Made by a program: the position numbers and the translations under genes
Assembly (NCBI RefSeq): GCF_964059175.1
Contig: NZ_OZ060418.1
Coordinates: 372,001-436,000, forward strand
Reading direction: 5' to 3'
Source of the DNA: Buchnera aphidicola (Brachycaudus tragopogonis)
GTDB lineage: Bacteria; Pseudomonadota; Gammaproteobacteria; Enterobacterales; Enterobacteriaceae
DNA: 64,000 nt
The notes under the pieces: generated by a model
Seen by the model: the letters and a program-made list of their open reading frames with translations, nothing else
What the model was told of the DNA's origin: nothing
The model's database searches: none
In this document: in pieces, positions 41,351 to 41,793 of the stretch
Numbering within the stretch: the first letter of the stretch is position 1
Layout of the letters: each line of letters starts with the position of its first letter

Positions 41351-41366
41351 GCAGTAGATATGCCTT

Positions 41367-41423
41367 TTAAGTTACAGTGGCCAGTCTACATAGCTCATGA
41401 TGAAAATATTGATTTATTCTCAT
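41367..41423 (-). CDS. yrbN: YrbN-like 18-residue leader ORF upstream of deaD
   Basis: An ATG at 41423 opens an 18-codon frame, [18 protein letters not shown], ending in TAA 16 bases before the deaD ATG. It resembles the start of E. coli YrbN as I recall it ([18 protein letters not shown]), a small protein encoded between nlpI and deaD. E. coli YrbN has about 26 residues. The stop overlaps the AAAAGG ribosome-binding site of deaD, which suggests translational coupling. The same bases in the deaD frame read MSYVDWPL then stop (41372-41398), matching an extension sometimes annotated on enterobacterial DeaD. The start has no strong ribosome-binding site. Confidence 0.65.
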
Positions 41424-41793
41424 TGAAAAGTGTGAACCGGCTCAAATTAAATGATTTAACAAATATAAAATTGAATTTTTATAACAATAAAATTATATTT
41501 GTTAGTTATTGCTAATGATTTTTTAAATATATATTTTTTATTAAAAAAAATAACATTAGCAAATGATTGAAGTTTATTTTTTTAAAAATCATAAATCTAT
41601 TTTTTTAGATCAAGATAATTTTAAAAATAAAATGAATTAAGTTTTATATCATATCTATGGTACTATTTGAAAAGATATAAATCTATATTTTATTAAAAAT
41701 GTTTCATTTTTTAGATAATAATAAAAAATTTATATTTCATTAATTTAAAACAATTATATCAGATAATATTATTATTTATTGAGAATAATATCA
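41424..41793 (-). promoter_or_regulatory. Long deaD leader region, site of lost nlpI
   Basis: No gene remains where E. coli has nlpI. Bases 41351-41450 hold about 35 G or C per 100, while the next 100 hold about 9, so the conserved leader stands out sharply. A 9-bp stem TTGCTAATG/CATTAGCAA spans 41509-41562 with an A+T-rich loop. Another 8-bp stem (AGAATAAT/ATTATTCT, 41782-41800) overlaps the pnp stop codon and could end pnp transcripts, although no T run follows. Confidence 0.4.

Follow-up and report, generated by a model that had tools for sequence, protein, structure and literature searches.

A candidate two-state RNA in the deaD mRNA leader of Buchnera and its relatives, with the yrbN small ORF embedded in it

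An island of raised G+C content precedes deaD, the gene of a DEAD-box RNA helicase, in the 64,000-nt stretch of the Buchnera aphidicola (Brachycaudus tragopogonis) genome analysed here (hereafter the window; coordinates count from its first letter). We consider it likely, from comparison of leader sequences, that this island is a conserved two-state cis-regulatory RNA of the deaD mRNA leader, in which the small ORF yrbN is embedded. The comparisons show both predicted helices by their conservation and covariation, show that the helices exclude each other, and show that the pairing has outlived the yrbN reading frame in Buchnera. The elements are collected in Table 1.

Table 1. Features of the deaD leader in the window
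Feature	Coordinates	Strand	Remarks
Strand X (GCCGGTTCACA), 5′ arm of helix A	41431..41441	-	upstream of the micro-ORF; within the 30-nt run identical to E. coli
Apical hairpin AUGAGAAUA...UAUUUUCAU	41400..41423	-	MFE fold; contains the micro-ORF start codon; loop absorbs length changes
YrbN-like 18-codon ORF	41367..41423	-	embedded in the folding element upstream of deaD
5′ arm of helix B in Buchnera (ATGAGCTATGTAG)	41386..41398	-	pairs with 41354-41342
Strand Y (TATGTAGACTGGC)	41380..41392	-	common to helices A and B; codes part of LCRLA in the yrbN frame
deaD Shine-Dalgarno AAAAGG	41363..41368	-	possible pairing of GGC (41364-41362) with GCC (41381-41379)
Strand Z (CTGCATGACTCAT), 3′ arm of helix B	41342..41354	-	contains the deaD start codon
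deaD (csdA), DEAD-box RNA helicase, 599 aa	39551..41350	-	NCBIfam NF008642, 1054 bits, cut-off 989

The first-pass annotation had described the 18-codon ORF without naming its strand, and its account of the layout was accurate. The micro-ORF ends 16 nt before the deaD ATG (41350), and its stop codon, TAA at 41369-41367, overlaps the Shine-Dalgarno sequence at 41368-41363. G and C make up 35 of the 100 bases at 41351-41450 against 9 of 100 at 41451-41550, as had been estimated. Directly upstream of the leader lies pnp. Two A+T-rich inverted repeats, noted by eye on the minus strand between pnp and the leader (41562-41509, TTGCTAATG...CATTAGCAA; 41503-41458, AACAAATATAA...TTATATTTGTT), are possible structures of the pnp 3′ end.

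The likeness to YrbN held for 10 of the 18 residues, a score equalled in 0 of 100,000 shuffles; the E. coli YrbN used here (locus L032) differs slightly from the sequence given in the first-pass annotation. Against the NCBIfam YrbN model (NF033440), the peptide, extended by two X residues to reach the minimum length, gave an E-value of 1.6e-5 and 24.4 bits, which is below the cut-off of 33 and does not assign it to the family by score; its place immediately before deaD, in a leader homologous to that of E. coli, is that of YrbN. At the DNA level, the best E. coli match to the window's leader showed 75.4% identity over 99% of the 131-bp query, which matched 5375 of 5426 E. coli genomes. The longest run identical to E. 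coli is 30 nt (TAATTTGAGCCGGTTCACACTTTTCAATGA) and lies mostly 5′ of the micro-ORF, so that the best-conserved run is mostly noncoding. The window and the E. coli yrbN-deaD junction are thus homologous DNA with the same order, ORF then deaD, and strong selection on the leader during genome reduction, as claimed, is borne out. The two junctions differ in that the window's ORF has 18 codons (E. coli YrbN has 26 residues) and stops before deaD, whereas E. coli yrbN overlaps deaD by 8 nt, and in that the window's YrbN-like peptide scores below the family cut-off. The nlpI gene of the E. coli junction, said to be gone, was not found in the 654-kb source genome with an E. coli NlpI query, which is weak evidence of loss because the search was run without a positive control.

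To compare leaders, we used loci from part of the 247 genomes matched by a covariance model (CM) of the leader, chosen by hand as the divergent ones plus about one per genus; 239 loci collapsed to 214 distinct leaders. Five loci (L051, L061, L062, L067 and L068) were dropped as spurious pattern matches, and L061, L062, L177-L181 and L185 were left unanchored by the strand rule. L150, L166 and L063, which carry insertions, were kept out of the pair counts; L246 had no detected start and L014 an extra ATG.

In helix A, strand X (GCCGGUUCACA) pairs with strand Y (UGUAGACUGGC); Y, UAUGUAGACUGGC, lies inside the ORF. Ten of its eleven positions form standard pairs in 196-207 of 207 distinct leaders, and 206 of them carry a mismatch at position 8 (C-A in 191). 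On the CM alignment, which comprises 100 loci in 94 distinct rows and was fitted to helix A, 96.2% of cells were paired, and 13 both-sided changes were counted against 1.7 in shuffles (0 of 500), with versions slid along the sequence reaching 20-34% paired. A strand-anchored recount gave 97.0% paired and 7 both-sided changes against 0.9 in shuffles (0 of 1000). Pair 3 changes from C-G to U-A in four leaders from four genera. When compensatory co-changes were counted by parsimony on a tree built from about 190 nt of deaD, 6 fell in the 11 predicted pairs and 6 in 169 other column pairs. Partner shuffles, the control for both helices, leave relatedness among the sequences in place; an initial count over 31 similar sequences was not above shuffles. 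Helix A is weaker in these leaders than it could be, through the mismatch and, usually, two G-U pairs; this is what one would expect if the strand is to be displaced. The apical hairpin was paired in 86% of cells in alignment A1, with little covariation.

Helix B joins strand Y, through UUAUGUAG, to CUACAUG and one further base in the start region of deaD. It can be extended by pairing of the GCC at the end of Y with the GGC of the Shine-Dalgarno sequence, a combination found in 28 of 36 Buchnera genomes, the other 8 having GCU with GGC. In Buchnera the helix is longer, AUGAGcUAUGUAG with CUGCAUGaCUCAU; each of its 12 pairs is kept in 34-36 of the 36 genomes, and a thirteenth position is a mismatch in 35. 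On the CM alignment (A2), helix B was paired in 75% of cells. Cells changed on both sides numbered 28, where shuffles gave 13.6 (0 of 500), and two of five measures were not above shuffles there (both-sided pairs, 4 vs 5.0; pair types, 12 vs 12.7). In 75 of the 100 rows of that alignment the deaD AUG is in register and in 25 it is misaligned, and we therefore recounted helix B with strand-anchored positions. This recount, on 87 distinct X/Y/Z triples, found 88.2% of cells paired; slid versions reached 24-55%, and both-sided changes numbered 34 against 9.5 ± 3.1 in shuffles (0 of 1000). Compensatory co-changes on the deaD tree amounted to 4 in the 8 predicted pairs vs 11 in 187 other column pairs.

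Because both helices draw on the same bases of Y, they are mutually exclusive. Comparative and computed evidence together give two exclusive helices with a common strand, one of which covers the start codon. The ensemble energy of state B minus that of state A averaged 0.0 ± 3.7 kcal/mol (range -11.3 to +18.9); the gap was below 4 kcal/mol in 166 of 206 leaders, B was the lower in 112 of 206, and the Buchnera average favoured A by 3.0 kcal/mol. In 199 of 206 leaders the deaD AUG was computed to be less accessible in state B than in state A, partly by construction because B includes the AUG. With A imposed, the computed openness of the AUG was 0.82 in Buchnera, 0.38 in other leaders and 0.17 in E. 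coli, and with B imposed it was about 0.02, again partly by construction. In the unconstrained ensemble it was 0.72 in Buchnera vs 0.14 in other leaders. The Shine-Dalgarno sequence differed little between the states (0.44 vs 0.33). Single-sequence folding stability was not unusual (z of -1.31 for the window and +0.69 for E. coli), and the MFE fold of the E. coli leader is not state A.

The balance was computed over five temperatures from 10 to 42°C for eight leaders. The window sequence favoured B at 10 and 20°C but A at 30°C and above, two other leaders (L005 and L024) favoured A at all five temperatures, and E. coli favoured B throughout, less so when warm. Since deaD is a cold-induced gene, the computed preference of the window's leader for B in the cold is the reverse of what a simple thermometer on such a gene would show; a simple melting RNA thermometer fits the gene badly, and this series gives it no support.

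We propose that pairing of Y with X would leave the deaD AUG more open, and that pairing of Y with Z would cover it and let GCC pair with the Shine-Dalgarno GGC, so that A would be the ON state and B the OFF state. Helix A can form once Y has been transcribed; a new mRNA would probably start in A and could then relax to B. The balance may be set by a ribosome translating yrbN in free-living species, by cold slowing the rearrangement, or by feedback from DeaD. Cold induction would fit a kinetic scheme in which A forms first and then relaxes, more slowly in the cold or faster with DeaD. The non-Buchnera leaders lie near the closed state, which would fit a need for yrbN ribosomes, and the computed balance in Buchnera lies near the open state, which would explain the loss of the ORF there. 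Translation of yrbN probably takes part in free-living species, since the frame is kept in them.

More tentatively, and as something we would not ourselves bet on, DeaD may flip its own leader. The imperfect helix A would then be a helicase substrate whose opening converts the open state A to the closed state B, making the leader autoregulatory and helicase-sensing, and Buchnera would run on the RNA alone, having shed the leader peptide. In cspA-type cold-shock leaders, the leader of a cold-shock gene folds in alternative ways, and DeaD, the product of the same gene as here, reportedly autoregulates through its own 5′ UTR. The present leader resembles these systems by description; the X/Y/Z pairing is not known to have been described for them. 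The literature covered yielded nothing on the deaD leader, and the work on DeaD autoregulation lies outside it, so that the pairing has perhaps already been published. In particular, the accessible parts of PMC6277586, PMC6736130, PMC5694010 and PMC4316790 contain nothing on the deaD leader. YrbN is named in a table passage of each of two papers; in one, an Erwinia amylovora expression table (PMC9371280), yrbN is listed together with a DEAD/DEAH helicase, and their values are similar.

A different reading, suggested by the first-pass annotation, is translational coupling between YrbN and deaD, in which ribosomes ending on the micro-ORF open the deaD start and selection keeps the ORF itself. 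The larger-genome relatives within the family speak for it. Their frame is intact in 131 of 132 distinct fetched leaders, the sole break (L233, genome G063) being in a genome scored 49% complete. The distance from the ATG to strand Y preserves the frame (31 nt in 130 leaders, 25 and 30 in one each) while that from strand X to the ATG varies (19 nt in 27, 20 in 103, 21 and 26 in one each). Moreover, the stop lies at most 32 nt from the deaD start in 130 of the 131 intact rows, as measured from a script-chosen start that is sometimes an in-frame upstream ATG, and in the window it overlaps the Shine-Dalgarno sequence. The AUG of non-Buchnera leaders, computed to be mostly closed, likewise implies that something must open it. 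From the frame conservation, yrbN-deaD coupling is plausible in free-living relatives.

Buchnera argues against this reading. The leader was matched in all 36 Buchnera genomes, the window's included, and in their alignment the distance from the start codon to the block CATGAGCTATGTAGACTGGCC varies in length. Through this block the YrbN frame is intact in 20 genomes and broken in 16, by a frameshift in 15 and a stop in one. The breaks are mostly indels in the loop and spare the paired strands. On a deaD tree in which 12 of 33 inner branches are unsupported, we counted at least six changes of frame state and at least three between intact and broken. The frame is broken throughout one clade of nine genomes and one of four, which makes sequencing error unlikely, and in seven frame-broken genomes the micro-ORF ends 43-44 nt upstream of deaD. 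Among other small genomes (those of 1.8 Mb or less, classed as reduced by hand), 23 of 40 distinct leaders retain the frame; one of the 40 (L176) was later dropped as mis-anchored. In the folds computed for the window, the hairpin also pairs the AUG of the micro-ORF. YrbN is, by these comparisons, a conserved ORF in larger-genome relatives and dispensable in Buchnera, and the view that the micro-ORF is the thing preserved is not supported.

The substitution pattern points the same way. Counted by parsimony over the 36 Buchnera genomes, changes per site were 6.43 in the upstream spacer, 0.45 in the helix of strand X, 1.71 in the seven bases before the ATG, 0.22 and 0.11 in the arms of the apical hairpin, 0.80 in the five bases before Y, 0.08 in strand Y, 4.0 in the four bases after Y, 0.29 in the Shine-Dalgarno block and 0.64 in the eleven bases before deaD. 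In the first 480 nt of deaD, codon positions 1, 2 and 3 gave 1.43, 0.375 and 4.73; strand Y is thus more conserved than deaD second codon positions, and the noncoding strand X is also strongly conserved, which counts against coupling. Within the clade of nine genomes that lack the frame, we counted 0 changes over the 38 sites of Y and the Shine-Dalgarno/start block vs 33 over 32 upstream sites. Among the 21 in-register rows, codon positions 1, 2 and 3 of the 22 sites around Y change 7, 3 and 6 times, so that there is no third-position excess and no sign of protein-level constraint. As the explanation of the conserved leader, therefore, selection on the ORF for coupling seems to us unlikely. 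The frame is not conserved within Buchnera and lacks the third-position excess, which is largely the outcome that the first-pass annotation had named as refuting the ORF, whereas the excess identity of the leader over its flanks is real and, by these comparisons, follows the RNA pairing. The first-pass annotation was right that the leader is real and selected but named the wrong target of selection.

The deaD-frame reading MSYVDWPL, also pointed out there, is present and closed by a TAA. We rejected it as an N-terminal extension of DeaD: the TAA closes the frame here, and the distance from Y to the ATG varies from 36 to 48 nt.

Among known systems, a Salmonella Mg2+ transporter uORF, as described in the accessible part of PMC8092293, is like the deaD leader in having a short ORF just upstream and a structured start that needs unfolding. 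Unlike in that description, the ORF's own sequence here supplies a strand to both rival helices, which remain in genomes with a broken ORF.

We regard it as improbable that the hairpin serves in processing or stability, for instance as a site for RNase III or RNase E in the pnp-deaD interval, with helix B as merely local structure. Helix A and the apical hairpin do form one long imperfect duplex, and nuclease sites are known in transcripts of the pnp region, but such an element leaves unexplained both the covariation of Y with the deaD start and the conserved mismatch and wobble pairs of helix A. We give hardly any weight to a promoter or protein-binding DNA site, for although TTGAGC resembles a -35 hexamer, a scan of 41300-41900 listed no minus-strand promoter-like pair within the leader (6 pairs in that region vs 7.9 in shuffles), and the compensatory changes point to RNA.

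The leader, as represented by the covariance model, was matched in 247 of the 295 genomes of the family, once in each. Of the 48 without a match, 38 match the DeaD protein at E ≤1e-20 with 38-76% identity, the weakest of which could be other helicases; the presence of deaD in such genomes indicates that the element can be lost and is dispensable. In a sample of the order, searched with the stricter filters applied to samples of more than 40 genomes, 21 of 247 genomes were matched, three of them outside the family. These three weak matches (L183 and L186 in G336 and G360 of family f11, and L184 in G347 of family f22; E 3.5e-5 to 2.0e-4) have X- and Y-like strands 5′ of an ATG, with the YrbN frame absent or broken. 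The exact helix A pattern occurred in at least 117 stretches; nearly all of the 80 matches listed carry Enterobacterales names, including Yersinia, Serratia, Pantoea, Dickeya and Salmonella, the oddities being Martelella and a Phycisphaerales bin. The latter, a metagenome bin with the enterobacterial leader pattern (L304), probably holds a misbinned contig.

We inspected the deaD leaders of 15 of 30 loci from CM-negative genomes. Two of them, from reduced genomes (L374 and L375), have helix-A-like strands by eye (GAGCCAGUU/GGCUGGUC and AUCCAGUU/AACUGGAU) and no YrbN-like ORF. Four deaD matches in very small genomes (L382, L383, L386 and L397) contain one or two in-frame stops, and deaD may be decaying there.

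The leader would, if the proposal holds, be a conserved regulatory RNA at a well-studied E. coli locus and absent from Rfam. Symbionts with a decayed small ORF and a retained RNA pairing are a natural experiment that separates two functions of overlapping sequence, and they are a warning that where small ORFs such as YrbN are conserved in amino-acid sequence, RNA pairing may be the cause. Genomes as reduced as that of Buchnera are thought to keep few regulators, and an RNA switch kept on an RNA helicase would bear on the control of gene expression in them. A search of Rfam at E ≤1 gave no match at the E. coli leader (L032, 2300-3900) and none at the deaD leader within positions 40500-44500 of the window, where the one match was at rpsO. 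This match, at the rpsO start (44256-44352, minus strand), is to the ribosomal S15 leader and lies below threshold (28.4 bits, gathering cut-off 39.5, E 0.00089); it is perhaps another autoregulatory leader kept in this genome.
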